A stretch of DNA of 51,675 nucleotides from Clostridia bacterium (GTDB lineage: Bacteria; Bacillota; Clostridia; Oscillospirales; Acutalibacteraceae). Of the stretch, positions 2,994 through 20,863 are shown one piece after another; the stretch's first letter is position 1, and every line of letters starts with the position of its first letter. A program made the translations under genes and the position numbers. The stretch spans positions 1 through 51,675 of the forward strand of contig JAFRLW010000025.1 of assembly GCA_017431035.1 (NCBI GenBank), read 5' to 3'. The notes beneath the pieces are model-generated. The model saw nothing but the letters and a program-made list of their open reading frames with translations, had not been told where the DNA came from and ran no database searches.

Positions 2994-3032
2994 ACAATTA
3001 CCTCACATTTTAACTATTATATTTGCTATCGT

Positions 3033-3038
3033 ATTATA
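3033..3038 (-). promoter_or_regulatory. Possible -10 element for the ceramidase-like gene
   Basis: A perfect TATAAT on the minus strand, 40 bases upstream of the start codon at 2993. The matching -35 region is weak. Confidence 0.4.
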
Positions 3039-3103
3039 CCATATATAATACAAAAAGTCATTATAATTTGCAGATTTTTGTAAAAAAGTTTTAGGATAAA
3101 ATG

Positions 3104-3132
3104 TTGACAAATGGCATAAAGGGGTTTATAAT
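3104..3132 (+). promoter_or_regulatory. SigA-type promoter of the Leu T-box operon
   Basis: TTGACA at 3104-3109 and TATAAT at 3127-3132 with a 17-base spacer: a consensus vegetative promoter. Transcription would begin near 3139, at the start of the T-box leader. Confidence 0.9.
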
Positions 3133-3138
3133 TTATCA

Positions 3139-3424
3139 TCATAAAGATTAAATGCTATGAAGGAATTATGCTCTTTAGTCTAACTTTAAGAGAGTCGGCG
3201 GACGGTGTGAGCCGATAGCGAAACTAAAAGGCAGTCTCGTTCCGGAGCAGGCGGGGTAAAGGCTACGGCTTGTAATCTCGCACGGGCGCCCCGTTATAGG
3301 CTTACGGCTTAGTAGAGTCGGAAAGCGATTACACCCCTTGCGGCGTAGTAATCGGGGTGGTACCGCGAAAAAATGTTTTTTCGTCCCCGAAGTCCTTTGT
3401 GGATTTCGGGGATTTATTTTTTGT
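3139..3424 (+). promoter_or_regulatory. T-box leader, leucine specifier (CUC)
   Basis: Transcribed leader with the T-box parts in order. Stem I has the AGAGAGTCGG motif near 3188. The specifier CTC at 3236-3238 is followed by a purine and then TTCCGGAGC, whose GGAGC can pair with GCTCT near 3169. The T-box sequence GTGGTACCGCG is at 3357-3367, followed by an intrinsic terminator. The UGGU bulge suits a tRNA with discriminator A, as in tRNA-Leu. Uncharged tRNA-Leu would stabilise the antiterminator and switch the operon on when leucine is scarce. The specifier was read by hand, aligned to the other two leaders here; specifier-to-T-box spacing is nearly the same in all three (116-118 bases). 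Confidence 0.9.
3384..3423 (+). terminator. Attenuator terminator of the Leu T-box
   Basis: TCCCCGAAGTCC (3384-3395) pairs with GGATTTCGGGGA (3401-3412), followed by a T-rich tract. This is the OFF-state hairpin, mutually exclusive with the antiterminator. Confidence 0.9.
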
Positions 3425-3440
3425 CAGTTTTGGAGGAAGT

Positions 3441-4844
3441 ATGAAAAACCTTAAATTATGTGACACAACAATTAAAAATGCAAACGGCGAGTGCGGATAT
3501 TCTCTCTCTTTCAGAGAAAAAATCGAACTTGCCAAAATGCTTGACAAATTAGGCGTTGACGTTATTGAAATGGGTGTTCCGCAATCTTTAAGAACCGATG
3601 GGCTTCTTATAAAATCAATAGCGGCGGCAGTAGAAAACGCCACCGTTTCGGTTGCAATTCCGATAGAAAGCGAGAAGGACGCCGAGTATATATGGGAATG
3701 CCTTAAAGATGCAAAGAATAAAAGGCTTCAGGTATCTCTTCCGGTTTCCACCGTTCAAATGGAATATCTTTATCATAAAAAGAGCGATGGTATGATAGAA
3801 CTTGTTAAAGAAAAAGTTTCCCTTGCAAAACGTTTTACCGATAACGTAGAGTTTTGCGCCGAAGACGCCACAAGGGCTGATTTTGACTTTTTGCTGGATG
3901 TGATTAGCGCCGCAAAGGATAGCGGAGCCACCGTATTCACCCTTTGTGATGCGGCGGGGGAGATGCTGCCCGAAGAGTTTTCTTCTCTTGTAAAAAATGT
4001 AAAGGAAAAACTCGGCGAGGTCAATATAGGCGTTCTTGTCAGCGATAATCTCTATATGGCACAGTCGTGCGCCGTAAATGCCATTTCCGCAGGCGCTGAC
4101 GAAATTAAGGTTTGTGCGGTAAAAGGCAATACCGCCGCTTTAGAGCAGGTGGCCTTTGCCGTTAATGCCGTATCGGATAAACTGTCGGTTAAGACCGGTG
4201 TTAAAATCACCGAACTCCACCGCACAGCCGCTAAAATAGAAAGGCTTTGCCGTACTGACAGACCGAAATCTTCCCCCTTTGATAACGGAGTCAGGGAAGA
4301 GGAGGATTTTACCCTCAGCGTTCACGACGAAAAGTCGCAAATAGCGGCGGCGGCAAGTAAACTCGGCTATGATTTGAGCGGTGAAGATATTGATATAGTA
4401 TATGAGGCGTTTTTGAGTGTCGCCGATAAAAAGGAACAAATAACCGCCAAAGAACTTGATGTGCTTATAGCTACAAGCGCCTTGCAGGTTCCGCCTACAT
4501 ATAAACTTGAGGGATATGTCATAAACTCAGGCGATATAATAACTTCTACAAGCCAAATCAGACTTTCAAAAGACGAAAAGACCCTTGAAGGTTTTGCCGC
4601 AGGCGACGGTCCGGTTGACTCTTCTTTCCTTGCCATAGAGCAAATAACCGGTATGCATTATGAACTTGACGATTTCCAAATCCGTGCCGTTACAGAGGGC
4701 AGAGAGGCTATGGGCGAGTCGGTTGTAAGGCTTCGCAGTAACGGAAAGCTCTATTCCGGCAGGGGTATTTGCACAAATATCGTAGGATCTAGTATTATGG
4801 CGTATATAAATGCACTTAATAAAATCGTTTATGAGGAGAACTGA
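3441..4844 (+). CDS. LeuA-like protein (DRE-TIM fold plus leucine-binding domain) lacking catalytic residues
   Basis: 467 residues; start at 3441 behind GGAGGAAGT. Residues 1-270 align with the TIM barrel of isopropylmalate/citramalate synthases. Residues 350-467 are a good LeuA dimer/allosteric domain (GDGPVDSSF, AVTEGREAMGES). The catalytic core is altered. The usual DTTLRDGEQ is DTTIKNANGE (residues 8-17), so the catalytic Arg is Lys12 and the metal-binding Asp is Asn13. The usual H-x-H-N-D metal site reads LVSDN (199-203). The NGxGERxGN loop is not recognisable. It therefore may not perform the acetyl-CoA condensation. It could be a leucine-sensing partner of the next enzyme, or a DRE-TIM enzyme with different chemistry. 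It is first in the Leu T-box operon, one base upstream of the next gene. Confidence 0.75.
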   Translation: MKNLKLCDTTIKNANGECGYSLSFREKIELAKMLDKLGVDVIEMGVPQSLRTDGLLIKSIAAAVENATVSVAIPIESEKDAEYIWECLKDAKNKRLQVSLPVSTVQMEYLYHKKSDGMIELVKEKVSLAKRFTDNVEFCAEDATRADFDFLLDVISAAKDSGATVFTLCDAAGEMLPEEFSSLVKNVKEKLGEVNIGVLVSDNLYMAQSCAVNAISAGADEIKVCAVKGNTAALEQVAFAVNAVSDKLSVKTGVKITELHRTAAKIERLCRTDRPKSSPFDNGVREEEDFTLSVHDEKSQIAAAASKLGYDLSGEDIDIVYEAFLSVADKKEQITAKELDVLIATSALQVPPTYKLEGYVINSGDIITSTSQIRLSKDEKTLEGFAAGDGPVDSSFLAIEQITGMHYELDDFQIRAVTEGREAMGESVVRLRSNGKLYSGRGICTNIVGSSIMAYINALNKIVYEEN

Positions 4845-4845
4845 A

Positions 4846-7326
4846 ATGAAACTTTCTTTTTCCACAAGGGGACTTCACGATATTTCTTTTGAAGTTCTTA
4901 CTGATTTGGCGGTTGAAAACGAGTTTTCCGGAATAGAAATATACGACGCTTTCAAAGAGCCGTCACTTATCGGTGCGGGGGCTCCTTTACATAAGTACAA
5001 CGCCGCCGCAACCGCTCGCTATTTAAGAGAGAAAAATATAGAACTGCCGTTGTTTGACAGTTCTTGCAACATAGGTATGGGTGATAGCAAAGAGATAAAA
5101 AACGCCCTTTTCCTTATATCAACCGCCGCTTCTATGAAAAGTGAGTATGTCAGTATCAGGTCGGATTCTACTGATGAGTCGCTTATACAAAAAGATATAA
5201 AAACGCTCTTGTCTGCCGCAAAAGAAAAGGGAATAACTCTGCTTATCAAGACAAACGGCGCTTTTTCCGACACTGAAAAACTTAGAAATATGCTTGAAGT
5301 GTTTGCAAGTGACAATTTGGGTGTATTATGGGACGTTCATCATCCCTACAGAGATAAAAACGAAACCCCCGAGCAGACTATAAAAAATCTCGGCGCTTAT
5401 ATAAAACACGTTCATTTGCGTGATTCGGTTGACAAAGATACCTACCGCCTTGCAGGTGAGGGAGATATGCCGATAGACGAGGTTATGCGCGCGCTTTATT
5501 CGGTTGACTATGACGGCTTTATTTCACTCGAGTGGAAAATAGAGTGGATGCCCGACCTGCCTTATCTTGACGTCATACTTCCGCACTTTGTAAATTATAT
5601 GCACCGTTTCTCATCAACCAGGGGCAAGAAAAAGAGTCTTTACCCTAACTTTGACGGAACGGGTCAGTACGTTTGGAAACAGGATGAACTAATCGACCTC
5701 ACCTTTTCAGAGGTGCTTGACCGTATGGCTAAAGAGTTTCCCGACCAGTATTGTTTTAAGTACACTACCCTTGATTATACAAGGACCTATGAACAGTTCA
5801 GAGACGACGTTGACGAGTGTTCAAGAGCGTTGGTCTCCCTTGGTGTTAAACCCGGCAGTAAGGTTGCCGTTTGGGCGACAAACGTTCCCGAGTGGTTTAT
5901 AACCTTTTGGGCGACTGTTCGTATAGGTGCGGTGCTTGTCACGGTTAATACCGCCTATAAAATACACGAGGTGGAGTATCTGCTTCGCCAGTCGGATACA
6001 CATACCCTTGTGCTTATAGAGTCCTGCCTTGACTCTAACTATAAAGAGATAATAAAAGAACTGTGTCCGGAACTTGACAGTATAAAACCGGGTGAGCATT
6101 TACACGCAAAAAAACTTCCGTTTTTGAGAAATGTTATAACCGTAGGCTTTAAGATGAAAGGTTGTCTTGAGTTTCGTGAAATGCTTTCCCGTGCCGAAAT
6201 GGTATCGCCTAAAGAAACGGCGAGAATGGCAAAACAGGTCCGCCCTGATGACGTTTGCAATATGCAGTACACTTCCGGCACAACAGGTTTCCCGAAAGGC
6301 GTTATGCTAACCCACTATAATGTTATCAACAACGGCAAATGTATAGGCGACCGTATGGGACTTTCCACTGCCGACAGAATGATGATACAAGTGCCGATGT
6401 TCCACTGTTTCGGTATGGTGCTTTCAATGACCTCTTCCATAACGCACGGCGCAACCCTTTGTCCAATACCTTATTTTTCGGCAAAGAGCGCCCTTGCTTG
6501 TATAAATCAGGAAAAGATAACCTGCTTTAACGGCGTTCCCACAATGTTTATTGCCATGTTCAACCACAAGGATTATAAAACCACCGATTTTTCCCATATC
6601 AGAACGGGAATAATGGCGGGTTCGGGTTGTCCGCCCGAGCTTATGAAAAGGGCCGCAGAAAAAGACGGTATGAATATGAGGGGAATTGTCAGCGTTTACG
6701 GTCAGACCGAGTCATCCCCCGGCAGTACAATGTCGGCGTGGACCGACCCTATTGACGTACGCACCGAAACGGTGGGATATGCTTTTCCGCACATTTTGTG
6801 TAAGGTTATCGACCCCGAAACCGGCAAAGAACTTCCCGCAGGACAAAACGGCGAGTTTTGTTCAAAGGGCTATAACACTATGAAAGGCTATTATAAAATG
6901 CCCGGCGCCACTAAAGAGGCGGTGGATAGCGAGGGTTGGCTCCACTCAGGCGACCTTGCCTGTAGGGATGAAAACGGCAACTATCGTATAACGGGAAGAC
7001 TGAAAGATATGATTATCAGGGGCGGTGAAAACCTCTATCCTAAAGAGATAGAAGAGTTCATTTATACCCACCCTGCCGTAAAAGATGTTCAGGTTGTCGG
7101 CGTTCCCGATAAGCGCTACGGCGAGGAGGCTATGGCCTTTATAATTCTTAAGAACGGCGAAAAGGTGACCGAGCCTGAAATGCGTGCTTTTATAACAGCA
7201 TCCCTTGCCCGTCATAAAATACCTAAATATATAGAGTTTGTAGACTCTTTCCCGATGAACGCCGCAGGAAAAATACTCAAATACAAAATGCGTGAAGATG
7301 CGGCAAAGAGGCTTGGACTTGTTTAA
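4846..7326 (+). CDS. Fusion of a xylose-isomerase-like TIM barrel and an AMP-forming acyl-CoA synthetase
   Basis: 826 residues from the ATG at 4846 (GAGGAG upstream). Residues 1-255 form a sugar phosphate isomerase/epimerase (AP endonuclease 2 type) barrel with likely metal ligands in WDVHHPYR (162-169) and KHVHLRDS (187-194). Residues about 285-826 are a complete acyl-CoA synthetase: P-loop YTSGTTGFPKG near 475, VYGQTES, HSGDLA, a hinge at GRLKDMIIRGGEN, and the C-terminal catalytic lysine in AAGKILK. The ligase resembles short/medium-chain FadD-like enzymes rather than the other two ligases in this window. It would convert an acid plus ATP and CoA to acyl-CoA. The Leu T-box suggests isovalerate; this is inference. 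The barrel's role is unknown. Confidence 0.8.
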   Translation: MKLSFSTRGLHDISFEVLTDLAVENEFSGIEIYDAFKEPSLIGAGAPLHKYNAAATARYLREKNIELPLFDSSCNIGMGDSKEIKNALFLISTAASMKSEYVSIRSDSTDESLIQKDIKTLLSAAKEKGITLLIKTNGAFSDTEKLRNMLEVFASDNLGVLWDVHHPYRDKNETPEQTIKNLGAYIKHVHLRDSVDKDTYRLAGEGDMPIDEVMRALYSVDYDGFISLEWKIEWMPDLPYLDVILPHFVNYMHRFSSTRGKKKSLYPNFDGTGQYVWKQDELIDLTFSEVLDRMAKEFPDQYCFKYTTLDYTRTYEQFRDDVDECSRALVSLGVKPGSKVAVWATNVPEWFITFWATVRIGAVLVTVNTAYKIHEVEYLLRQSDTHTLVLIESCLDSNYKEIIKELCPELDSIKPGEHLHAKKLPFLRNVITVGFKMKGCLEFREMLSRAEMVSPKETARMAKQVRPDDVCNMQYTSGTTGFPKGVMLTHYNVINNGKCIGDRMGLSTADRMMIQVPMFHCFGMVLSMTSSITHGATLCPIPYFSAKSALACINQEKITCFNGVPTMFIAMFNHKDYKTTDFSHIRTGIMAGSGCPPELMKRAAEKDGMNMRGIVSVYGQTESSPGSTMSAWTDPIDVRTETVGYAFPHILCKVIDPETGKELPAGQNGEFCSKGYNTMKGYYKMPGATKEAVDSEGWLHSGDLACRDENGNYRITGRLKDMIIRGGENLYPKEIEEFIYTHPAVKDVQVVGVPDKRYGEEAMAFIILKNGEKVTEPEMRAFITASLARHKIPKYIEFVDSFPMNAAGKILKYKMREDAAKRLGLV

Positions 7327-7362
7327 GCGTAGGGCTAAATGTTTTAAGGAAAGGAATTGAAA

Positions 7363-9219
7363 ATGTATCTAAAAAAACTTTTTTCTTTTTTGGCGGCGGC
7401 AGCAATTATTGTAAATATCTTTTGCATAATACCGATTAAGGCAAAAGCGGAAAACGGAAGTGACGTTGTAAGCACGATTCCGGGTGATACAAACGGAGAT
7501 TATGTATTTGACGACCAGGACGCCATACATCTTCTTTTCTGCGTTTATTTCCCTGAAACATATATGGTTTCAGGTCAGTGTTCTGATTTTAACGGTGACG
7601 GTGAGCTTACAGACCAGGACGCCGTATATCTGCTGTTCAGCTTATACTTCCCTGAAACATATCTTCTTCCGAAAACGTATTTTAACAGTTATAACGGCCT
7701 TGAAAAAATCAACGAGGATAATACCTACATCACCGTTAATATTACCGATAATCTCACCCTTGATATGAGGGGGATATACGGTATACCGCAAAAAGAGATA
7801 TATAATGGTATAATTTCGCTTGACTGGGGCGACAGCGAAACAATAGAAGATGTCGCAAAGGCTTACGAAGAGTCACAAAATAACCTTAAACATACCTATT
7901 CCTCTCCGGGAGAATATGTTATTACCCTTACGGGTATGACGCAGTTTATGGGACTTTGGGTGAGGGCAAACTCATCGATTATAAACCGAGTGGAACTATC
8001 TTCTAAAATAACAAAAATACAGCAAATGGCTATGGATGGACTTGATACGCTTGTTGTAAACAACCCTGAGCCGTTTGATATTTACAACCAGTATGATGAA
8101 AAAATAACCGTTATAAATAATATAGGAAAAATAAACCGTATTGAAATCCCCGAAAACAGTTTTCTTTCCTTTTATGACTCGGATAAATATGATGCGATAT
8201 TAAAAAATGCACTTGTAAAGCCTGATGACAACTTACTCTACGATAACATCACCGTAACGGTCGGCGAAAATGGAGATTTTACTTCTATAAACGAGGCTAT
8301 GCGTTATTTGTCGGTATATTTCCCGACCTATCGTTCGGGTGGAATACACGCCTATATAAAGATTTTAAGCGGCACGGTAATAAAAGACCAGATTTTTGTT
8401 GACGGATATGATTGTTCGTGGATGGTCATTACATATGAGGACTATTTGCCGTCAGTTATACAATACTCAACTGTTTGTCAGGATATAGCAGAGGGGAAAA
8501 TTATCTTTGATGACACCGAAAACTTTAACACTGTTAAGGTTGATGCAACCGATTTCAGCGGCATTTCCCATGACACAAGGGGTGATGTTTGCTTTTTAAG
8601 AGCTGAAAACGGCGGAAAACTTCCGCAGATAAACTGTGTGTTTAAGCTTGTAAACAATCAAAAAAATAATATTCCTGTTGCCGGAATGGTTTGTAATAAG
8701 GGGAGTATCGGTGTGGTAAATCCTCTTTGCGGATTTATAGGCTTTTATGACGGAGTAATAGCAAATAATGAATCTTCCGTAACTATTCGTGAGGGAATAA
8801 CTATGGACTGCACTCGTTGGGGATGCCATGCTCGTCATAACGGAGAAATATCTGCCCGCTCGATAATCGCTACAGGTTGTGCAAAAGAGAACTCTTTTGA
8901 ATCGGCGGCTGTTTCAGCCGATAGAATTGCCGACCTGGATTCGAGAGGGGCATATATAAGCAATAAAGGTGTACAAATAAGATGTAATAATACAAGCCGA
9001 ATGAATTGTAACGGAATGAACATTGTCGGTGATGGTGAAAACACAGTAGAAATTGTAAATGAAAACGTTTCTACATTAAACGCAATATCAATGCTTGTAA
9101 GCGGAACTGTCAAAATAACAAACGCATCAGGAAGCACCATGCTTGTAGGAAATTATAATTTTGATAAAGAATACATATTTAACACCTTAACGGCAAATGG
9201 TGTGATTTATAAACAATAA
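7363..9219 (+). CDS. Secreted dockerin protein with PKD-like and beta-helix regions
   Basis: 618 residues. A signal peptide (K-K, then a hydrophobic core, ending near AKAEN at 27-31) is followed by a type I dockerin at 41-100: two calcium-loop repeats, GDTNGDYVFDDQDA and DFNGDGELTDQDA, each followed by a near-identical YFPETY helix end. A stretch with LDWGD and HTYSSPGEYVITLTG (about 135-185) looks PKD-like. From about 300 on, ENGDFTSINEA suggests a right-handed beta-helix of the pectate-lyase or phage-tailspike type. I see no recognisable glycoside hydrolase site. I chose the ATG at 7363 over a TTG at 7357 from the spacing to AAGGA. It lies 36 bases after the synthetase fusion with no visible terminator, so read-through from the Leu operon is possible. 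Confidence 0.75.
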   Translation: MYLKKLFSFLAAAAIIVNIFCIIPIKAKAENGSDVVSTIPGDTNGDYVFDDQDAIHLLFCVYFPETYMVSGQCSDFNGDGELTDQDAVYLLFSLYFPETYLLPKTYFNSYNGLEKINEDNTYITVNITDNLTLDMRGIYGIPQKEIYNGIISLDWGDSETIEDVAKAYEESQNNLKHTYSSPGEYVITLTGMTQFMGLWVRANSSIINRVELSSKITKIQQMAMDGLDTLVVNNPEPFDIYNQYDEKITVINNIGKINRIEIPENSFLSFYDSDKYDAILKNALVKPDDNLLYDNITVTVGENGDFTSINEAMRYLSVYFPTYRSGGIHAYIKILSGTVIKDQIFVDGYDCSWMVITYEDYLPSVIQYSTVCQDIAEGKIIFDDTENFNTVKVDATDFSGISHDTRGDVCFLRAENGGKLPQINCVFKLVNNQKNNIPVAGMVCNKGSIGVVNPLCGFIGFYDGVIANNESSVTIREGITMDCTRWGCHARHNGEISARSIIATGCAKENSFESAAVSADRIADLDSRGAYISNKGVQIRCNNTSRMNCNGMNIVGDGENTVEIVNENVSTLNAISMLVSGTVKITNASGSTMLVGNYNFDKEYIFNTLTANGVIYKQ

Positions 9220-9240
9220 GTAAAAAAAGCAAAAAAACGC

Positions 9241-9269
9241 TTGACAAACGGGATATTCGGTGTTATCAT
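9241..9269 (+). promoter_or_regulatory. SigA-type promoter of the Ile T-box unit
   Basis: TTGACA at 9241-9246 and TATCAT at 9264-9269 with a 17-base spacer, ahead of the second T-box leader. Confidence 0.8.
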
Positions 9270-9275
9270 ATCAAA

Positions 9276-9551
9276 AAATAACAAAGGCTTTGACGAAGAC
9301 GGTCTTGATTTCTTTTTGTTAGAGAGTCGGTGGTTGGTGAAAACCGATAAAAAGGCTTCAAAAGTACCTATCACTTCCGAGCCGAAGTCCGAAAGATTTT
9401 TAATTTAGTAGGCGCTTCCGTAGTTGCTGCGTAAAGGCAAAGGGGTTGTTTGACCCTATTAAGAGGCAGTCTTTTGATTGCAATTTGAGTGGTACCGCGA
9501 GTGTTGATTGATTACACCCGTCTCAAAGATTTGAGACGGGTGTTTTTATTT
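9276..9551 (+). promoter_or_regulatory. T-box leader, isoleucine specifier (AUC)
   Basis: At the base of Stem I, GGCTT-TGAC-GAAG near 9287 pairs with CTTC-C-GAGCC near 9374-9383. The AGAGAGTCGG motif is near 9321. ATC at 9370-9372 sits directly before ACTTCCGAGCC in the specifier position. The T-box sequence GTGGTACCGCG is at 9489-9499. The UGGU bulge fits the A discriminator of tRNA-Ile. Isoleucine starvation should turn on the XRE-cupin-ligase downstream. The 3' half from the T-box to the terminator is nearly identical to that of the Val leader, which points to duplication. Confidence 0.9.
9514..9551 (+). terminator. Attenuator terminator of the Ile T-box
   Basis: ACACCCGTCTCAAA pairs with TTTGAGACGGGTGT, followed by TTTTATTTTT. 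OFF-state hairpin of the leader. Confidence 0.9.
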
Positions 9552-9569
9552 TTCCGGGAGGGATGAAAA

Positions 9570-11837: not shown

Positions 11838-11854
11838 AAAATCCCATAAAAACA

Positions 11855-11883
11855 TTGACAACAATTAAAAGTAATGGTATAAT
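11855..11883 (+). promoter_or_regulatory. SigA-type promoter of the Val T-box operon
   Basis: TTGACA at 11855-11860 and TATAAT at 11878-11883 with a 17-base spacer, beginning only 17 bases after the preceding stop codon. Confidence 0.9.
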
Positions 11884-11889
11884 AGCGGA

Positions 11890-12168
11890 AAATAAAAAGG
11901 CTTTGACGAAGAGGTCATAAAGTCACGGTATGCGTAGAGAACCGGCGTTTTGGTGAAAGTTCGGTGATATCGCCTTTGTGATGTAACTTCTGAGCCGGAA
12001 GGAAGAACGGTTTTTATGACCTATTAGACCCTTCCCGAGAAGGCTGCGTAAGTGCATAGGAGTTATTAGACTCTGAAGTGGCGGTTTTTTTACCGTAATT
12101 TGAGTGGTACCGCGAGTGTTGATATTTACACCCGTCTCAAAGATCATTACTTTGGGACGGGGTTTTTT
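11890..12168 (+). promoter_or_regulatory. T-box leader, valine specifier (GUA)
   Basis: GGCTT-TGAC-GAAG near 11900 pairs with CTTC-T-GAGCC near 11987-11995. GTA at 11983-11985 precedes ACTTCTGAGCC in exactly the place of ATC in the Ile leader. The T-box sequence GTGGTACCGCG is at 12104-12114 with the UGGU bulge that suits the A discriminator of tRNA-Val. It would switch on the 7.4-kb operon downstream when tRNA-Val is uncharged. The AGAGAG motif of Stem I is weaker here (GTAGAGAACCGG). Confidence 0.88.
12131..12168 (+). terminator. Attenuator terminator of the Val T-box
   Basis: CCCGTCTCAAAG (12131-12142) pairs with CTTTGGGACGGG (12150-12161), with one G-T pair, followed by TTTTTT. Confidence 0.9.
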
Positions 12169-12192
12169 CGTTCCAGCAAGAAGGGATGTTTT

Positions 12193-14484
12193 ATGGAAAA
12201 AATAACAGGTCTTGATTTCAAAATCAAAGAAATGGCGCTTCGTATCAGGGAACTGAGAGAAGTCACCCGTTTCACCCCTGCCGAAATGGCGGAAAAAACC
12301 GGTGTAACGCAGGAGGAGTACCTCAAGTGCGAAAACGGCGAGAGTGACTTAAACTTTGCTTTTATCTACCGTTGCGCTTTGGCTTTCGGTGTTGACGTTA
12401 CCGATATTATCGAGGGTGTCAGCCCTACTCTTACATCTTATACTTTAACCCGTGCCGGCAAAGGACAAATTATAGATAAGGCTCACGGTATGGAGTATTA
12501 TAACCTTGCTTCCTCTTTCCAAAACAGGATAGCCGAGCCGCTTTTTGTCCACAGTGCATACAGCGAAGAGGCGCAGCATAAAGATATTCAACTCACAACC
12601 CACTCGGGTCAAGAGTGCGATATTGTTATAAAAGGTCACCTTATGGTGCAGGTAGGTCATCATAAAGAGGTTTTAGGACCGGGCGACAGCATCTATTACG
12701 ATAGTTCCACGCCCCACGGTATGATAGCGGTGCAAAACGAGGACTGTCTGTTCTATGCTATCGTATTAAACCCCACCGGAGAGCCTATCCCCGAACTCAC
12801 ACCGGCACGACTTGTGCCTGAGGCGGACCGCAAGATAAGGCGTGACGATAAACCCCGTGTTTATAAAGACTTTATCGACGTTACAGAGGATGAAAACGGA
12901 ATACCCACCTCAATCCGCTTCAAAAATGAGGATAAGTTCAATTTCGGTTTTGACGTTGTTGATAAAATCGCCGAAAAAGACCCTGAAAAACTTGCTATGC
13001 TTCATATTTCGGCAAACAAGACCGAGCGCCGCTTTACCTTCCGTGATATGATGCGAGCCTCAAACCGTTGCGCAAACTATTTTAAGAGCCTCGGTATAAA
13101 AAAAGGCGATAGGGTGCTTTTGTCCCTTAAACGCCACTACCAGTTCTGGTTTGCTATTTTGGGTCTTAACAAACTCGGCGCTATCGCTATTCCGGCTGTA
13201 AGCCAACTTCAGTCCCACGATTTTGAATACCGCTTTAAGATGGCGGGGGTTTCGACCGTTATTTGCACTGCTGATGAGGACACCGCCAATCAAATAGATA
13301 TTGCGCTTAAAGAGTATGACGGAATGAAGAATAAACTTATTGTCAACGGCTCAAAGCCCGGCTGGCGCAGTTTTGATAAAGAATATCCGCTATACAGCAC
13401 CCATTTTGAAAGAGATGAGAATACCGCTTGCGGAGATGACCTTATGCTTATGTACTTTACATCAGGTACAAGCGGTTATCCCAAAATTGCGGCTCATAAC
13501 TATAAATATCCGCTCGGTCATTTTCATACTGCTAAATACTGGCACTCGGTTGACAGTGACGGACTTCACTTCACAATTTCCGATACCGGTTGGGCAAAGG
13601 CTATGTGGGGTAAACTCTACGGACAGTGGCTTTGCGAGGCGGCAACCTTTGTATATGACTTTGACCGCTTTGACGCCGCAGATATTTTGCCTATGTTCGC
13701 AAAATACCATATAACCACATTTTGCGCTCCGCCTACTATGCTTCGTATGATGGTTAAAAAAGATATCAGTAAATACGACCTTTCTTCCGTAACCCATATG
13801 ACCACCGCCGGCGAGGCGCTGAACCCCGAAGTTTATCGCCAGTTTGAAAAGGCGACCGGACTTCAGATAATGGAGGGCTTCGGTCAGTCGGAGAGTACAA
13901 TGATTTTAGGCAACCTTGCAGGCGCTCCGCATAAAATCGGCTCAATGGGCAAACCCGTTCCGATTTATGACGTTGACCTCTTTGATATGGAGGGTAACTC
14001 AGTACCCGTAGGTGAGGTTGGCGAGATAGTTGTAAACCTCAAAAACGGCTCGCCCTGCGGACTTTTTACCGGATATTATAACGATGAAGAAAAAACCAAA
14101 GAAGCCATACACGACGGCTACTATCACACCGGCGATACCGCCTGGCGTGATGAGGACGGTTTCTTCTGGTATGTAGGACGTGTAGACGACGTTATCAAAT
14201 CGTCGGGCTACCGCATAGGACCTTTCGAGATAGAAAGTGTTATTATGGAACTGCCATACGTGCTTGAGTGCGGTGTTTCCGCCGCTCCCGACGAGGTCAG
14301 GGGTCAGGTTGTTAAAGCTTCGATAGTTTTAATAGACGGGGTAACGCCAAGCGACGAACTCGCCAAAGAGATACAAGAGTACGTCAAAACCCATACGGCA
14401 CCATATAAATATCCACGTATAGTAGTCTTCCGTGACAGTTTGCCGAAAACGGTCAGCGGAAAGATACAAAGAAATCAACTGTGA
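12193..14484 (+). CDS. XRE-HTH / cupin / acyl-CoA synthetase fusion, Val T-box controlled
   Basis: 763 residues from the ATG at 12193 behind AAGAAGGGAT; a longer reading frame to 12100 would start inside the T-box and is not credible. Domain order is as in the Ile-unit paralogue: XRE helix-turn-helix (LRIRELREVTRFTPAEMAEK), cupin (HSGQECDIVIKGHLMVQVG, SSTPHGM), then the synthetase with FTSGTSGYPK, TTAGEAL, GFGQSEST, YHTGDTAWRDEDG and a C-terminal SGKIQR lysine. The two proteins are clearly close duplicates, most alike in the C-terminal domain. The valine specifier and the 2-oxoisovalerate oxidoreductase genes downstream point to isobutyrate as substrate (inference). First gene of the Val operon; the next gene starts 8 bases after the stop. 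Confidence 0.85.
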   Translation: MEKITGLDFKIKEMALRIRELREVTRFTPAEMAEKTGVTQEEYLKCENGESDLNFAFIYRCALAFGVDVTDIIEGVSPTLTSYTLTRAGKGQIIDKAHGMEYYNLASSFQNRIAEPLFVHSAYSEEAQHKDIQLTTHSGQECDIVIKGHLMVQVGHHKEVLGPGDSIYYDSSTPHGMIAVQNEDCLFYAIVLNPTGEPIPELTPARLVPEADRKIRRDDKPRVYKDFIDVTEDENGIPTSIRFKNEDKFNFGFDVVDKIAEKDPEKLAMLHISANKTERRFTFRDMMRASNRCANYFKSLGIKKGDRVLLSLKRHYQFWFAILGLNKLGAIAIPAVSQLQSHDFEYRFKMAGVSTVICTADEDTANQIDIALKEYDGMKNKLIVNGSKPGWRSFDKEYPLYSTHFERDENTACGDDLMLMYFTSGTSGYPKIAAHNYKYPLGHFHTAKYWHSVDSDGLHFTISDTGWAKAMWGKLYGQWLCEAATFVYDFDRFDAADILPMFAKYHITTFCAPPTMLRMMVKKDISKYDLSSVTHMTTAGEALNPEVYRQFEKATGLQIMEGFGQSESTMILGNLAGAPHKIGSMGKPVPIYDVDLFDMEGNSVPVGEVGEIVVNLKNGSPCGLFTGYYNDEEKTKEAIHDGYYHTGDTAWRDEDGFFWYVGRVDDVIKSSGYRIGPFEIESVIMELPYVLECGVSAAPDEVRGQVVKASIVLIDGVTPSDELAKEIQEYVKTHTAPYKYPRIVVFRDSLPKTVSGKIQRNQL
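14143..14222 (+). repeat. 80-base exact repeat, copy 2 (in the Val-unit ligase)
   Basis: Identical to 11496-11575 in the Ile-unit ligase. It encodes the hinge region around WRDEDGFFWYVGRVDD. Confidence 0.85.
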
Positions 14485-14492
14485 GGAAAAAT

Positions 14493-15278
14493 ATGAGAGT
14501 ATCGGTTATACAAATGGATATGGAGTTTTTAAGCCCTGATAAAAACTTCAAAAAAGCCGCTTTATTGATAGAAAAAGCGGCAAAAGAGGGTATAGATACC
14601 GTAGTATTGCCTGAAACCTGGAACACCGGATTTTTCCCGAGGGAGAATATAGAAACCCTCGCCGATAATAACGGTGAACGGGTAAAAATGGAAATAGGAA
14701 CACTTGCAAAAAAGTATGGCATAAATATTGTTGCCGGCAGTGTTACAAATAAAAAGCAAGACGGTATTTATAATACGGCATACGTCTTCAATAAAAAGGG
14801 CGAAACGGTTGCCGAGTATGATAAAACCCACCTTTTCACCCCTATGGATGAGCATAAGTTTTATAACAAAGGCGACCATTTATCCTTTTTTACATTAGAC
14901 GGTATTAAATGCGGCATTATAATTTGCTATGATATTCGTTTTCCTGAACTTATAAGAAGTTATACCACAAAAGGTATTGATTTGTTGTTTGTCGTGTCCG
15001 AGTGGCCGAGTGTCAGGATACCCCACCTTATAGCGCTTAATAAAGCGAGGGCAATAGAAAACCAGATGTTCACCGTTTGCGCAAACTCTTGCGGAAGGGC
15101 GGGAGAAACGGTCTACGGCGGAAACTCGGTTGTGTTTGACCCGTGGGGCGAAGAGATAGCAAAAGCCGGAGAAAAAGAGGAAATTATAACCGTCTCTCTC
15201 GATTTTTCGGTAGTTAAAGATATCAGAGAAAGTATAAACGTATTTCGTGACCGCAGGCCCGAAATATATGATATATAA
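14493..15278 (+). CDS. Carbon-nitrogen hydrolase, omega-amidase-like
   Basis: 261 residues from the ATG at 14493 (GAGGAAAA upstream). Nitrilase-superfamily protein with the Glu-Lys-Cys triad visible in VVLPETW, YDKTHLF and IICYDIRFPEL. The cysteine motif C-Y-D-I-R-F-P-E and the overall length match omega-amidase/NIT2-like enzymes, which hydrolyse 2-oxoglutaramate or 2-oxosuccinamate left by transamination of glutamine or asparagine. Sitting between a ligase and a branched-chain aminotransferase, it could pull glutamine-driven transamination forward. A role in releasing branched-chain acids from amides cannot be excluded. Cytoplasmic; same operon. Confidence 0.85.
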   Translation: MRVSVIQMDMEFLSPDKNFKKAALLIEKAAKEGIDTVVLPETWNTGFFPRENIETLADNNGERVKMEIGTLAKKYGINIVAGSVTNKKQDGIYNTAYVFNKKGETVAEYDKTHLFTPMDEHKFYNKGDHLSFFTLDGIKCGIIICYDIRFPELIRSYTTKGIDLLFVVSEWPSVRIPHLIALNKARAIENQMFTVCANSCGRAGETVYGGNSVVFDPWGEEIAKAGEKEEIITVSLDFSVVKDIRESINVFRDRRPEIYDI

Positions 15279-15303
15279 AATAAACTGTTAAGGAGATATA
15301 ATT

Positions 15304-16407
15304 ATGAAGTATGACATCAAGTATCCTGTAACCAGGACCACACATCCGAAAGCAAGACCCGCCGATGAACACAATTTGGGCTTTGCAAATTATTTTACCG
15401 ACCATATGTTTATGATGGACTATGACGAGGGTATAGGTTGGCATGACGGTAGAGTAGTACCGAACGAGCCTATTCCGATAGACCCTGCTTCCTGCGTGCT
15501 TCACTATGCGCAAATGATGTTTGAGGGTATGAAAGCCTATCTTCGTCCCGACGGCAAATTGCAGATTTTCCGTCCTGATATGAACGCCAAGAGAATGGCT
15601 CGCACCGCTGAACGTATGGCTATGCCGGCAGTACCCGAAGAGATACTTATTTCCGGTATTGAGGCGGTACTTAAAGAGGACGCCGACTGGATGCCTAAAG
15701 CGGAGGGAACCTCAATGTATATCCGTCCTTTCGTTTTCGGAAACGAGATTTCTTTCTCGGCTCAGGCGGCTAAACACTATACTTTCATAATTTTGCTTGC
15801 TCCGTCAGGCTCTTACTATGCTTCAAACGAGGGCAAACTCGGCACCGCAAGAATATTTGTTCAGGATAAATATATCCGTGCGGCAAAGGGCGGTACAGGT
15901 TTTGCCAAAGTAGGCGGTAACTACGGCGGCGCTATGAAAGCCAGTCTTGACGCAAGAGAGTATAACTGTAAAGACGTTTTGTGGCTTGACGCCGCTGAAC
16001 ATAAATATGTTGAGGAGATAGGAACTTCAAACGCCTTCTTCCGTATAAATGATGAAGTTATCACCGCTCCCCTTGACTCAGGCACAATTCTTCCCGGTGT
16101 AACTCGTGATTCTGTTATACAGCTTCTTAAAAAATGGGGTATAAAAGTAAGCGAGAGAAAACTCGCTATCGACGAGGTGCTTTCCGCTGCAAAAGACGGC
16201 TCACTTAAAGAGATTTTTGCAAGTGGCACCGCCGCCGTTATATCTCCTATCGGTTGCCTTAATGTTAAAGGTGTTGATTACCAGGTTGCCGATGGTGAAG
16301 CAGGCGAGGTAGCAAACCGCCTTTATAAAGACCTTTACGGTATGCAAACCGGTAAAGTTGAGGACTATATGGGCTGGACCTATCCTCTTGATATAACCGT
16401 TAAATAA
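15304..16407 (+). CDS. ilvE: Branched-chain amino acid aminotransferase
   Basis: 367 residues; ATG at 15304 behind AAGGAGATATA. Fold-type IV PLP aminotransferase of the longer branched-chain subgroup: MMFEGMKAY near the N-terminus, the lysine-containing KVGGNYGGAMKA region, the E-I-G-T-S-N-A-F-F motif (usual E-x-G-T-x-N) and SGTAAVISPIG near the C-terminus. It interconverts valine, leucine and isoleucine with their 2-oxoacids using glutamate/2-oxoglutarate. Together with the oxidoreductase downstream it links branched-chain acyl-CoAs to amino acids. The stop TAA overlaps the ATG of the next gene by one base. Confidence 0.93.
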   Translation: MKYDIKYPVTRTTHPKARPADEHNLGFANYFTDHMFMMDYDEGIGWHDGRVVPNEPIPIDPASCVLHYAQMMFEGMKAYLRPDGKLQIFRPDMNAKRMARTAERMAMPAVPEEILISGIEAVLKEDADWMPKAEGTSMYIRPFVFGNEISFSAQAAKHYTFIILLAPSGSYYASNEGKLGTARIFVQDKYIRAAKGGTGFAKVGGNYGGAMKASLDAREYNCKDVLWLDAAEHKYVEEIGTSNAFFRINDEVITAPLDSGTILPGVTRDSVIQLLKKWGIKVSERKLAIDEVLSAAKDGSLKEIFASGTAAVISPIGCLNVKGVDYQVADGEAGEVANRLYKDLYGMQTGKVEDYMGWTYPLDITVK

Positions 16408-17057
16408 TGAAACGAATAACACTTTTTTGCGGCCATTACGGCAGCGGTAAAAGTAACATAGCGGTAAACTATGCGCTTTCTCTTAAAAATAAAGGACTGC
16501 CGGTAGCCCTTGCCGATATTGATATAGTAAACCCCTACTTTCGCTCGGCTGACAGCAGAGAAGAACTTGAAAGCGCCGGTGTAAAGGTGATAACCCTGCC
16601 TTTTGCCAATTCAAACGTTGACCTGCCGGCTATTCCGTCTGAGGTTTACGGACTTGTGCAGAACAAAAACACCTATGCCGTTATGGATATAGGCGGTGAT
16701 GACCGTGGCGCCTTGGCGCTCGGCCGGTTTACGCCATATATAAAAGAAGAAAACGACTACGAAATGATTTTTGTGGTCAACTTCTACCGACCGCTGACTA
16801 AAACGGCTATAGATGCGCTTTCGGTTATGAAAGAGATAGAGGCGGCGGCAAATCTTCGCTTTACGGGTATTGTCAACAACTCTAATCTCGGGGAAGAAAC
16901 CACCTTTAGTGATGTTTTTCGCTCGGTGGATTTGGCGGAAGAACTTTCCCGCCTTTCATCATTGCCGGTGCTTTTTACCGTAATGGACGAAAGAATTAAA
17001 GAGGAAGAAAAAATAGAAAACCTCATAAAAATTAAACTTCAAAAGAAAATATTTTGA
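16407..17057 (+). CDS. P-loop NTPase of unknown role in the Val operon
   Basis: 216 residues. A deviant Walker A, GHYGSGKS (residues 9-16), is followed by DIDIVNPYFRSAD and, near residue 95, VMDIGGDDRGALALGRF, which resembles a Walker B/switch region of SIMIBI-class (MinD/CobQ-like) NTPases. It has no membrane segment or metal-binding cluster. Coupled to ilvE by a TAATG overlap and 16 bases before the ferredoxin gene, so it is co-expressed with the oxidoreductase. A maturation or metal/cofactor-insertion ATPase for the complex is possible, but nothing in the sequence proves it. Confidence 0.6.
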   Translation: MKRITLFCGHYGSGKSNIAVNYALSLKNKGLPVALADIDIVNPYFRSADSREELESAGVKVITLPFANSNVDLPAIPSEVYGLVQNKNTYAVMDIGGDDRGALALGRFTPYIKEENDYEMIFVVNFYRPLTKTAIDALSVMKEIEAAANLRFTGIVNNSNLGEETTFSDVFRSVDLAEELSRLSSLPVLFTVMDERIKEEEKIENLIKIKLQKKIF

Positions 17058-17073
17058 TAAAGGAGTTGCAAAA

Positions 17074-17280
17074 ATGCCAAAGGTAACCTTCAAAACCGAT
17101 TTGTGCAAGGGATGCGGACTGTGTGTAAACGCTTGTCCCAAAGGCATTATTGAACTTGCAAAAGACCAAATAAACAAAAAGGGACATAGTCCCGCTCGTA
17201 TAACCGACAGTGAAAAATGCATAGGTTGCGCTTTTTGCGCTACTATGTGTCCTGACTGCGTTATCAAGGTAGAAAGGTGA
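17074..17280 (+). CDS. 2-oxoisovalerate:ferredoxin oxidoreductase, 2x[4Fe-4S] delta subunit
   Basis: 68 residues with two full C-x2-C-x2-C-x3-C-P motifs (CKGCGLCVNACPKG and CIGCAFCATMCPDC), each able to hold a [4Fe-4S] cluster. AAAGGAGTT precedes the ATG. It is the small ferredoxin-like subunit that carries electrons between the TPP site of the oxidoreductase and external ferredoxin. It is followed by the alpha, beta and gamma genes in the common delta-alpha-beta-gamma order of four-subunit 2-oxoacid oxidoreductases. Confidence 0.9.
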   Translation: MPKVTFKTDLCKGCGLCVNACPKGIIELAKDQINKKGHSPARITDSEKCIGCAFCATMCPDCVIKVER

Positions 17281-17290
17281 GGTGTTTTAT

Positions 17291-18355
17291 ATGAGTAAAG
17301 TCCTTATGAAAGGTAACGAGGCTATAGCCGAGTCGGCTATCAGGTCGGGTTGCCGCCACTATTTCGGCTATCCTATAACACCCCAGACCGAACTTGCCGC
17401 CTATATGGCGAAAAGAATGCCTAAAATAAACGGAACTTTTTTACAGGCGGAGAGTGAAATTGCCGCTATAAATATGGTTTACGGCGTTGCCGGAACGGGT
17501 AAGAGGGTTATGACATCCTCTTCTTCACCCGGAATATCCCTAAAACAAGAGGGTATTTCCTATATAGCCGGAAGCGATCTGCCCTGCCTTATAGTAAACG
17601 TTCAGCGTGGCGGTCCGGGACTTGGCGGTATTCAACCCTCCCAGTCGGACTATTTTCAGGCTACAAAGGGCGGCGGACACGGTGACTATCACCTAATCGT
17701 TTTAGCCCCGTCGTCAGTACAGGAAATGGCTGATCTTACTGCGCTAGGCTTTGACCTTGCCGATAAATATCTTATGCCTGCCATGCTTTTAGCTGACGGC
17801 ACAATAGGTCAGATGATGGAGCCGGTAGAACTAGGCGAAGAAAAGGCTGTTTCCACCGAAAAAAAACCTTGGGCAGTAACCGGCACCGAGATGAAGAGAA
17901 AACACAATATCGTAAACTCTTTATACTTGGCGCCCGATGAACTCGAAAAGAAAAACTTTGAGAGATATGAAAAATATAAAACAGTTGAGGAAAACGAGGC
18001 AAGATACGAAAGCTTTATGATGGAAGACGCCGAGTATTGCGTTGTCGCTTTCGGTATAGCCGCCCGTGTTTCCAAAAACGCTGTCGTTGCTGCGAGAAAA
18101 GAGGGCATAAAGGTCGGACTTATAAGACCTATAACCTTGTGGCCTTTCCCGAAAAAAGCCATAGCCGAAGCGGCAGGAAAAGTAAAAGGTATGCTCTCGG
18201 TTGAACTTTCAACCGGACAAATGATAGAGGATATCAAACTCGCCGCAAATTGCGCCGTTCCGGTGGAACTTTGTTGCCGTGTCGGCGGTATGATAATGTC
18301 GCCCGACGAGGTGCTTAACAGTATTAAAAAATTAGTCGGAGGTGCCGGAAAATGA
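17291..18355 (+). CDS. vorB: 2-oxoisovalerate:ferredoxin oxidoreductase, alpha subunit VorB
   Basis: 354 residues from the ATG at 17291; a GTG nine bases upstream overlaps the ribosome binding site and is less likely. It contains [57 protein letters not shown] split over residues 50-80, and [20 protein letters not shown], all typical of the VorB/KorA alpha subunit. It forms the pyrimidine-binding part of the TPP site. The enzyme reversibly converts a 2-oxoacid plus CoA to acyl-CoA, CO2 and reduced ferredoxin. The branched-chain assignment is supported by the valine T-box and the adjacent aminotransferase; a 2-oxoglutarate enzyme would look similar. Confidence 0.88.
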
Positions 18356-19104
18356 TAGTATTTGACAAACCGAAAAGCCTTACAGATGCGGAACTTCACT
18401 ATTGTCCCGGTTGTACTCACGGTATAATTCATCGCCTCGTTGCCGAAGCGATAGATAACCTCGGTATAGAGGGAAAAGCCATAGGCGTAGCGCCGGTAGG
18501 TTGCGCCGTTATGGCATATAATTATTTTGCCTGCGATATGGTAGAGGCGGCTCACGGCAGAGCCCCCGCCGTTGCAACAGGTATAAAACGCAGTCTGCCC
18601 GATAATATTGTCTTTACATATCAGGGCGACGGCGACCTCGCTTCCATAGGTATGGCGGAAACGGTACACGCCGCCACAAGAAATGAAAACATCACCGTTA
18701 TTTTCGTAAACAATGCAATTTACGGTATGACAGGCGGACAAATGGCGCCGACCTCACTACCCGGTCAAATAACCCAAACTTCACCCTACGGCAGAGATGT
18801 AAAAACCGCAGGATATCCCGTCAAAATAGCCGAACTTCTATCAGCCCTTGACGGTCCTGAGTTTATTGCTCGTGTTGCGGTCAATAATGTTAAAAACGTA
18901 AACACCGCAAAACGCACAATACAAAAAGCCTTTGAAAATCAGATAAACAATAAAGGTTTCTCTCTTGTAGAGGTTATATCCTCCTGCCCGACAAACTGGG
19001 GTATGACTCCAAGCGACGCTCTTAAATGGATAGATGACAATATGATACCCTACTATCCGCTTGGCGTCTTCAAAGACAAAAGCGCAAAGGAGGAAACAAA
19101 ATGA
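18352..19104 (+). CDS. 2-oxoacid:ferredoxin oxidoreductase, TPP-binding beta subunit
   Basis: 250 residues. The thiamine diphosphate domain is shown by [11 protein letters not shown] (residues 17-27), GVAPVGCAV, the [13 protein letters not shown] segment and the magnesium-TPP motif GDGDLASIG followed by [11 protein letters not shown]. The ATG overlaps the alpha-subunit stop (ATGA), so the subunits are translationally coupled. It carries out decarboxylation, or reductive carboxylation in reverse, at TPP. Length and motifs match the VOR/KOR beta subunit. Confidence 0.9.
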
Positions 19105-19631
19105 CTACCGAAATACTCATAGCGGGATTTGGCGGACAGGGAATACTCTTTGCCGGCAAGTTTCTCGCAAACAAGGGACTTTTTGAAGGTAGATCTTTAA
19201 GTTGGCTTCCTTCCTACGGACCCGAAATGCGTGGCGGCACCGCAAACTGCAGTGTTGTTTTGTCGGATGAGCCGATAGGTTCGCCTATCGTAACAAACCC
19301 CGACGTTCTTGTGGTTATGAACCTGCCTTCTCTTGATAAATATGAAAACGCCGTAAAACCGGGCGGTACGATATTTGTTGACTCAAGCCTTATTAAAAGA
19401 GAGGTTAAAAGGGAGGACGTAACCGCTTATTATATACCGGCTACCCGTCTTGCAAACGAGAACAATATGCCCACCCTTGCCAATATGATTATGATAGGCA
19501 AGGTGATTAAAGAGTGCGGTGTTGTAAGTACGGACGGTATGGAAGAAGCGGTCAATAAAATTGTTTCCGCTCGCCACCAAAATCTTAAAGAAATAAACCT
19601 TAAAGCCCTTAAAATAGGCGAGGAATATTAA
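19101..19631 (+). CDS. 2-oxoacid:ferredoxin oxidoreductase, gamma subunit
   Basis: 176 residues, opening with [17 protein letters not shown], the family's G-x-G-G-Q-G motif, and continuing with [17 protein letters not shown]. It overlaps the beta-subunit stop (ATGA) and is the last gene of the Val T-box operon, ending just before a strong terminator. The gamma subunit is thought to bind CoA and complete the complex. The absence of any further gene before the terminator defines the operon: ligase, amidase, aminotransferase, ATPase and the four oxidoreductase subunits. Confidence 0.9.
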
Positions 19632-19633
19632 AG

Positions 19634-19669
19634 AAAAAAATCACAGGGTAAATACCCTGTGATTTTTTT
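19634..19669 (+). terminator. Terminator of the Val T-box operon
   Basis: TCACAGGGTA / TACCCTGTGA inverted repeat with A and T runs on its two sides, straight after the gamma-subunit stop. Confidence 0.9.
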
Positions 19670-19732
19670 ATGCTTTATTTTCTCCTTGTTTTGTGCTAAT
19701 ATGATATAAAGGCAAAAAAGGGGGGCGTAAAA

Positions 19733-20863
19733 ATGCCAAAATGGACTGCAAAAATAGCGGATTTTATAAGAGAAACCGATAAGATACTGCTTTTTGTTTG
19801 TGTTGCCGCCAGTCTTTTCGGCAGCGTTGCGGTGCTTTCCGCCACAAGATACCTCGAAACCTATCGTCCGTTTGCGGTGCAACTGATAGGAACGGCGCTT
19901 GGCGTTTTTATTGCCGTTATAATAGCCGGTTTTGACTTTGACTTTTTCACAAGACATTATATACTTGCCGCCATAGTAGGCGTGGTGCCGGTGATACTGA
20001 CCTTTTTTATCGGCTTTGCCCCTGCGGGTACCGACGATAAAGCGTGGCTTGATTTAGGCATTACTACCTTTCAACCCTCCGAACTTATGAAAATATGCTT
20101 TATAGTAACCTTTGCGGCTCATTTGTCTAAAGTTAAAGAGAATATCAACAAACCTAAAACACTTATTCCCGTTCTTCTTCACGGTGCTTTTCCTGTGCTT
20201 CTTATTCACTTTCAAGGCGACGACGGCACGGCGCTCGTTTTCGCCATAATGGTGGTATTTATGCTCCTTGCCGCAGGACTTTCGTGGAAATATTTTGTAG
20301 CGGCGATAGGGGTGGCGCTTGTAGCCTCTCCGCTTGTGTATTTTCTTGTTATGAACGAGGACCAGCGTGCGAGAATTGTAAGCGTTTTTGATATAGAGGC
20401 GGATATCAGCGGCTCTACCTATCAACAGTACCGTGGGCGTGCCGCCCTTGCTAACGGCGGATTTTTCGGACAAGGACTATTTAGAGGCTCACTCACACAA
20501 AACGGTGGAGTGCCCGAAGGACAAAACGACTTTATATTCGTAAGTATAGGCGAGGAACTCGGAATAGTAGGTTGCCTTGCGGTAATAATACTGCTTTGCA
20601 TAATTTGTATCAGGTGTCTTAAAGCGGCAAGACTTTGCCGAAAGGAGAGCGGAAAAATAATCGCCGTAGGTTTCTTTGCTATGATGTTTGCGCAGATGTT
20701 TATAAATCTCGGTATGTGCTTGGCGCTTCTTCCCGTTATCGGCGTAACATTGCCGTTTTTCAGCGCAGGCGGTACAAGCCTTGTTTGCGTATATATGGGC
20801 GTAGGGCTGGTGCTTAGCGTATATATGCACAGGAACACGAGAACAATTCATCTTCACGATTAA
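19733..20863 (+). CDS. SEDS-family peptidoglycan glycosyltransferase, RodA/FtsW-like
   Basis: 376 residues; ATG at 19733 behind AAAGGGGGGCG. About ten membrane segments, with SEDS landmarks: TTFQPSELMKI in the first third, RGRAALANGGFFGQG in the middle loop, NDFIFVSIGEELG, and GGTSLVCVYMGVGLVLS at the end. SEDS proteins polymerise lipid II into glycan strands, together with a class B penicillin-binding protein. The family covers RodA, FtsW and SpoVE; no neighbour decides between them, although the sequence reads most like RodA. Monocistronic between two terminators. Confidence 0.88.
   Translation: MPKWTAKIADFIRETDKILLFVCVAASLFGSVAVLSATRYLETYRPFAVQLIGTALGVFIAVIIAGFDFDFFTRHYILAAIVGVVPVILTFFIGFAPAGTDDKAWLDLGITTFQPSELMKICFIVTFAAHLSKVKENINKPKTLIPVLLHGAFPVLLIHFQGDDGTALVFAIMVVFMLLAAGLSWKYFVAAIGVALVASPLVYFLVMNEDQRARIVSVFDIEADISGSTYQQYRGRAALANGGFFGQGLFRGSLTQNGGVPEGQNDFIFVSIGEELGIVGCLAVIILLCIICIRCLKAARLCRKESGKIIAVGFFAMMFAQMFINLGMCLALLPVIGVTLPFFSAGGTSLVCVYMGVGLVLSVYMHRNTRTIHLHD

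Follow-up and report, generated by a model that had tools for sequence, protein, structure and literature searches.

The window analysed here is a 51,675-nucleotide stretch that forms contig 35 of a draft Clostridia bacterium genome (1.48 Mb, 44 contigs, 95% complete). We found that positions 3104–19669 hold three consecutive T-box units with leucine, isoleucine and valine specifiers, each with its own acyl-CoA ligase; the Val unit adds a branched-chain aminotransferase and a 2-oxoisovalerate:ferredoxin oxidoreductase (VOR). The module is real and conserved. Known parts, newly arranged, explain most of it; its substrates are predictions. We are fairly confident that it salvages 2-methylbutyrate, isobutyrate and isovalerate by reductive carboxylation under tRNA control.

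A first-pass annotation of this DNA had proposed three promoter plus T-box leaders reading CUC, AUC and GUA, and both the leaders and their specifiers were recovered in alignments to the Rfam covariance model RF00230 (gathering score 93 bits). The Leu leader (3148–3391; all features below lie on the forward strand unless stated) scored 103 bits and the Ile leader (9281–9528) 98.1 bits, both above the gathering score and full-length. The Val leader (11894–12142) was found with an E value of 1.1e-14 at 73.9 bits, below that score. Compensatory changes back this weak third leader: they occur at 19 of 39 predicted pairs in an alignment of relatives (29 of 41 script-cut leaders, all chosen for reading GTA). 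The specifiers CUC, AUC and GUA were read by eye in the covariance alignments, and a script that called specifiers upstream of every ligase open reading frame (ORF) in the window, in stretches of related genomes and in 80 related loci gave the same result. Alignments and hairpins, together with covariation for the Val leader, place a Stem I specifier, an antiterminator and a competing terminator in the window leaders, which are among nine T-box matches in the whole genome. GC-rich attenuator-like hairpins with a T run (3383–3413, 9514–9543 and 12131–12161) overlap the 3' end of the Leu, Ile and Val leaders, respectively. Promoter-like sites just 5' of them, at 3104–3132 (TTGACA-17-TATAAT, 12/12 consensus matches), 9241–9269 (11/12) and 11855–11883 (12/12), are the top three of positions 3000–20000; the scan as a whole was only mildly above chance, with 42 sites against 30.6 ± 5.9 in shuffles. 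A two-way terminator-like hairpin (19634–19669), whose 16-pair stem was found on both strands, closes the Val unit. Genes for tRNA-Leu(GAG) and tRNA-Val(TAC) were found in the genome.

An AMP-binding domain is present in the ligase of all three units, as had been proposed. The Leu unit opens with a LeuA-like protein (3441–4844; Pfam HMGL and LeuA_dimer), a probable pseudo-isopropylmalate synthase with a LeuA regulatory domain and lost catalytic residues, and continues with a fusion of a TIM barrel (AP_endonuc_2) to a predicted isovaleryl-CoA ligase (4810–7326, starting at 4810 or 4846). The predicted 2-methylbutyryl-CoA ligase of the Ile unit (9570–11837) and the predicted isobutyryl-CoA ligase of the Val unit (12193–14484) both carry an N-terminal helix-turn-helix (HTH)-cupin part. 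Behind its ligase the Val unit encodes a CN-hydrolase (14481–15278, Pfam match), the aminotransferase IlvE (15304–16407; NF009897, 434 bits against a cut-off of 307), a P-loop NTPase (16407–17057; weak ParA/CbiA match) and the VOR genes. The latter comprise a ferredoxin-like subunit (17074–17280; ORF translation with two Cys clusters), VorB (17282–18355; NF005507, 564 bits against a curated cut-off of 399), a thiamine pyrophosphate-binding subunit (18352–19104; TPP_enzyme_C, below the NCBIfam cut-offs shown) and a gamma-type subunit (19101–19631; TIGR02175, 83.6 bits against 81.1). The assignment to VOR thus combines a VorB above its curated cut-off with all three partner subunits, and the aminotransferase and four-subunit oxidoreductase of the earlier proposal are confirmed. 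The LeuA-like first gene and the TIM-barrel fusion of the Leu unit, the HTH-cupins of the Ile and Val units and the CN-hydrolase and P-loop NTPase of the Val unit were absent from that proposal.

The pairing of leader codon and ligase was then surveyed across relatives. A locus scan gave at least 579 loci with a relative, of which the best 80 were used; these come mostly from rumen and gut metagenome-assembled genomes labelled Oscillospiraceae, Ruminococcaceae, Lachnospiraceae or Clostridia, with Erysipelotrichaceae twice (L125 and L136) and Solobacterium once (L144). From 171 ligase matches we obtained 165 distinct proteins with an intact N-terminus; six matches with an intact N-terminus were shorter than 740 amino acids. 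Ile-type ligases (n = 90) stand behind ATC in 82 cases by script and in one by eye (L161), with seven uncalled. Val-type ligases (n = 75) stand behind GTA in 57 and GTC in five by script, and behind GTC in two more by eye (L136 and L144); 11 were uncalled, one of which (L137) has GUA in the Rfam alignment. For LeuA-like genes with more than 350 bases upstream (n = 39), 29 leaders read CTC and four CTG; one was misread (L100, CUC in the Rfam alignment) and five gave no call, among them L106, with a CUC T-box about 1 kb upstream. Counted by locus, an Ile-type ORF was called in 74 of the 80, with ATC by script in 66, and a Val-type ORF in 61, with GTA or GTC in 50 (L136 and L144 included by eye); both types were called in 43. 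Once the misreads had been checked, none of the leaders read points to a different amino acid for any of the three gene types. Synonymous changes do occur, GTC being found in seven rows that require four changes on the tree, at least three of them on starred branches. In the survey, AUC thus goes with the Ile type, GUA or GUC with the Val type and CUC or CUG with the Leu unit.

VOR shares the locus of the Ile ligase in 65 of the 80. The three ligases follow in close succession in L087, L091 and L141, and three ligases and VOR form one closely spaced run in L087, L096 and L152; the VOR gamma gene of L096 and of L152 is followed by the genes for the LeuA-like protein and the TIM-ligase. A group II intron match (L137:30–95) was seen near a contig end upstream of an Ile ligase.

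We next asked what the ligases themselves say about their substrates. The nearest solved relative of the Ile and Val ligases is MacS of Methanosarcina acetivorans (3ETC), which they match over the full catalytic domain at 627 and 610 bits. MbcS is the best named NCBIfam model for both, at 440 and 439 bits against an equivalog cut-off of 850. By these scores they are relatives of MacS and MbcS outside the MbcS equivalog. MacS prefers 2-methylbutyrate according to excerpts of PMC10455477, and Staphylococcus aureus MbcS, in the available part of PMC10026030, selects 2-methylbutyrate and isobutyrate and uses isovalerate poorly. This makes 2-methylbutyrate for the Ile ligase and isobutyrate for the Val ligase a fair prediction.

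Thirteen alignment columns split Ile-type (n = 86) from Val-type (n = 70) proteins at 85% or more. Eleven lie in residues 9–115, covering the HTH and the segment that precedes the cupin, encoded here at 9594–9914 and the matching part of 12193–12600, hinting that the fused HTH-cupin regulators of the two types may recognise different DNA or ligands. Two lie in the catalytic domain, and only one of these, column 460, is perfect, with Gly in 86 of 86 Ile-type and Ala in 70 of 70 Val-type proteins; in the window these are Gly460 (codon 10947–10949) and the discriminating Ala (codon 13594–13596, counted along the alignment). Sorted by specifier, the column reads Gly in 81 of 81 ATC rows and Ala in 54 of 54 GTA and 7 of 7 GTC rows. 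The 16 uncalled rows divide into seven Gly and nine Ala, L161 has Gly, and so have three further ATC proteins about equidistant from both types. In alignments MacS (3ETC) has Gly at the equivalent position; a 4-hydroxybutyrate ligase has Ala there, ACSM2A has Ile, and an acetyl-CoA synthetase has Val, which presumably lines the acetate pocket. In ACSM2A, whose ligand BCO we take to be butyryl-CoA, the residue after column 460 is Leu267 if the chain offset is 7, an offset that also fits Asp262. The CB atom of Leu267 lies 3.7 Å from the S1 atom of BCO (PMC6122825, from the portion available). The earlier view that ligase specificity cannot be read from the enzyme's own sequence was therefore partly wrong: family and an acyl-site-adjacent column, Gly or Ala, agree with the leader codon.

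Genes for de novo synthesis of branched-chain amino acids (BCAAs) were also looked for; the own draft has ligase, VOR and aminotransferase and no match above cut-off for IlvB, IlvC or IlvD. In 18 draft genomes of the same genus (57–98% complete), these three were above cut-off only in G009 and G010, and in none of the other 16. Below cut-off, IlvC had weak matches in G003, G007 and G010, and IlvB in the own genome as well as in a few more. The sole aconitase-family protein of the own genome has 643 amino acids, and no LeuC-sized protein was found there. Within the genus, G009 and G010 alone have a second, LeuC-sized member (420 and 444 amino acids), G014 and G015 having only fragments; in G009 and G010 it lies with IlvB, IlvC and IlvD in one cluster each. 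G010 (89% complete) has neither a fused ligase nor VorB above cut-off. In a wider set of 30 relatives, own genome included, VorB was above cut-off in 22, and IlvC was found in 1 of 21 genomes with a fused ligase versus 6 of 9 without (a partial match in G003 counted as present). Across 147 genomes of the order, with fused ligases counted at 930 bits or more and split, truncated or weaker relatives excluded, IlvC was present in 8 of 49 genomes with a fused ligase versus 61 of the remaining 98 (Fisher p 9e-8, with no correction for kinship); with two fused ligases it was present in 1 of 16, the second copy being truncated in G160. The proposal that ligase, VOR and aminotransferase replace de novo synthesis is well supported by gene order, by the survey of relatives and by the lack of ilvB, ilvC, ilvD and a LeuC-sized gene.

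The salvage route would run as follows. On shortage of a BCAA, its uncharged tRNA would bind the matching T-box (CUC, AUC or GUA) and let transcription enter that unit. The Ile unit would supply a 2-methylbutyrate ligase and the Val unit an isobutyrate ligase, both MacS/MbcS-like, and the Leu unit a ligase of another kind, whose likeliest substrate is isovalerate. Acyl-CoAs from all three routes would be carboxylated, in the reductive direction, by the one VOR encoded in the Val unit at the expense of reduced ferredoxin; the resulting 2-oxo acids would be aminated to the BCAAs by IlvE. The LeuA-like protein would be regulatory, and the CN-hydrolase would act as an omega-amidase.

Several observations weigh against this salvage route. 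Absence of genes from drafts is soft evidence; G009 has both routes, 8 of the 49 fused-ligase genomes of the order keep IlvC, and G017 (79% complete) lacks a fused ligase, VorB above cut-off and IlvC alike. No tRNA-Ile(GAT) was seen among the 36 tRNA matches of the draft genome, perhaps lost from the assembly. Val ligases stand without their own T-box in L087, L091, L127, L135, L141 and L146. In scans of a set in which several loci are cut off by a contig end, L087, L091, L141 and L145 gave no T-box, L152 and L122 gave none in front of the ligases, and L127, L135 and L146 gave one at the Ile ligase only. The TIM-ligase belongs to a different ligase family from the other two and stays below every NCBIfam cut-off shown; no close solved relative was found for it, and isovalerate is the weakest of the predicted assignments. 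The match between Gly/Ala at column 460 and the codon needs only two changes on a tree built without that column; a single independent pair lies on starred branches, too few for any comparative test to become significant, and we claim no significance for it. The catalytic-domain tree does not resolve the two types into clean clades: its Val side includes 12 ATC and three uncalled Ile-type rows, and its Ile side includes L148, a GTA row. Some gene conversion between the C-terminal parts is suggested, because these are closer within genomes than between them (likeness 0.903 versus 0.873, in 51 of 61 genomes); the N-terminal parts are closer within the genome in only 30 of 61. Finally, an Ile-type ligase stands beside VOR without a Val-type ligase in several loci (e.g. 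L089, L105 and L106), and one ligase may therefore serve two acids.

This last point bears on the most serious alternative, namely that the three ligases overlap in substrate and the codon names the scarce amino acid, not a unique acid. MacS and MbcS each accept more than one acid (excerpts of PMC10455477 and PMC10026030), as the loci with a lone Ile-type ligase might lead one to expect here; against overlap stand the fixed Gly/Ala difference beside the acyl site and the lack of any discordant codon among the leaders read. We regard it as possible, though unlikely. It is improbable that the ligases instead provide branched acyl-CoAs as starter units from which branched-chain fatty acids of the membrane are built, with T-boxes merely coupling them to amino-acid supply. 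Such is the role of MbcS in S. aureus (PMC10026030, as far as its text was available), and MbcS is the model that the Ile and Val ligases match best, albeit below its cut-off; but VOR shares the Ile-ligase locus in most loci, IlvE is part of the Val unit here, the ligase types carry specifiers for different amino acids, and de novo BCAA genes are missing. A catabolic direction is highly improbable; BCAAs would then be transaminated, VOR would oxidise the products to acyl-CoA, and acids would be released. In its favour, VOR and IlvE can run both ways, and amino-acid fermenters are known to carry out such oxidation; against it, AMP-forming ligases favour activation, T-boxes induce on amino-acid shortage, and the system's presence is anticorrelated with IlvC.

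The LeuA-like gene raises the question of whether leucine could be made from 2-oxoisovalerate in the usual way. We aligned the own protein to solved isopropylmalate synthases and found the positions that we take to be catalytic to be changed; neither the Arg-Asp pair nor the His-x-His metal site of LeuA is present. Of 39 LeuA-like proteins, four retain the catalytic Arg and none retains the metal Asp; each His survives in one protein, and no protein has both. By contrast, a GDGP motif in the regulatory region is found in 35 of the 39. A working 2-isopropylmalate synthase, which would leave the Leu-unit ligase with some other job, was rejected because the catalytic residues are absent and is scarcely credible: it has in its favour the Pfam domains and best NCBIfam models that are 2-isopropylmalate synthases, all below cut-off, and against it also the missing LeuC-sized protein and, in G009, a separate LeuA above cut-off (PRK03739) beside the LeuA-like one. 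The protein is perhaps a leucine-sensing pseudoenzyme. A separate isovalerate ligase in this unit makes sense because MbcS uses isovalerate poorly (available part of PMC10026030). Extending the salvage reading, each leader codon might name the acid of its ligase, and the dead isopropylmalate synthase might sense leucine on the isovaleryl-CoA ligase and so gate the leucine route at both RNA and enzyme; we offer this tentatively, with somewhat less than an even chance of being right.

Other members of the Val unit were followed through the loci. Of the 84 loci in which VorB matched, 83 have the P-loop NTPase. The CN-hydrolase tends to travel with one aminotransferase type: among loci with VorB, all 10 that have the IlvE type of the own genome contain it (nine distinct, since L049 and L085 are the same contig), and none of the 54 that have the other type does; L094 and L162 have the CN-hydrolase with no IlvE seen. 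Its matches below cut-off include the amidohydrolase model PRK10438, which we take to be YafV, an omega-amidase, and it is a reasonable guess that CN-hydrolase and IlvE would work as a glutamine transaminase with its omega-amidase. Directly 3' of the Leu unit lies a probably secreted protein (7357–9219) with dockerin-like repeats by eye and no Pfam family. We set it aside as a module member; G008 (L049) alone shows a match at this place, and a weak one.

T-box units of related design occur elsewhere. In the own genome, a UAC (Tyr) T-box called by script precedes an acyl-CoA ligase and an indolepyruvate-type oxidoreductase (L065:2119–4607, contig C39), and L072, L073 and L074 hold similar units with UAC by eye; these are possible aromatic counterparts of the branched-acid module. 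That the Tyr unit fills a missing TyrA was rejected because a TyrA-type gene (PDH_N) is present in the own genome. In L045 and L075 (both G001) the partners are swapped: an indolepyruvate-type oxidoreductase comes after the Ile ligase, and the Val ligase and VOR have a relative of the Tyr-unit ligase next to them. A UGG (Trp) T-box of the own genome stands ahead of a lone TrpB-like gene (L066:239–1981, contig C14), which possibly serves indole salvage, and another T-box, UGG by eye, lies just 3' of a VOR gamma gene (L122:8074–8313).

The chemistry assigned to the module has long been known. In the rumen, isovalerate is turned into leucine, isobutyrate into valine and 2-methylbutyrate into isoleucine (Allison, Robinson and Peel, 1966–1971, as cited in the excerpted text of PMC7356843), and methanogens likewise use 2-methylbutyrate and isovalerate (PMC10658910, in part). 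The window module shares acids, products and probable chemistry with this rumen carboxylation of branched-chain volatile fatty acids, to which it adds a set of genes with a T-box specific to each of the three amino acids, separate ligases, HTH-cupin fusions and a probable LeuA-like pseudoenzyme. Its Ile and Val ligases share the full-length catalytic domain of MacS and MbcS; unlike these, they are HTH-cupin fusions, form two paralogues with different specifiers and stand under T-box control. Similarly, the LeuA-like protein shares barrel and regulatory domain with LeuA and has lost Arg-Asp and His-x-His. Known T-box regulons cover BCAA synthesis and transport as well as aminoacyl-tRNA synthetases. 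They have the same leader architecture and specifier logic, and specifiers have been used to annotate genes (PMC2494555, in the text available), whereas the window leaders control acid ligases and VOR. The words 'acyl', 'ferredoxin' and 'isobutyrate' have no occurrence in the main text of PMC2494555 as far as it was available. No description of T-box-controlled branched-acid ligases was found in literature titles and abstract openings, which cover subscription journals thinly and are weak evidence of novelty.

The module thus offers genes and a regulatory logic for the old observation of isoacid use in the rumen. Branched-acid cross-feeding would become predictable from genomes, with leader codons leading to predictions of ligase substrates.

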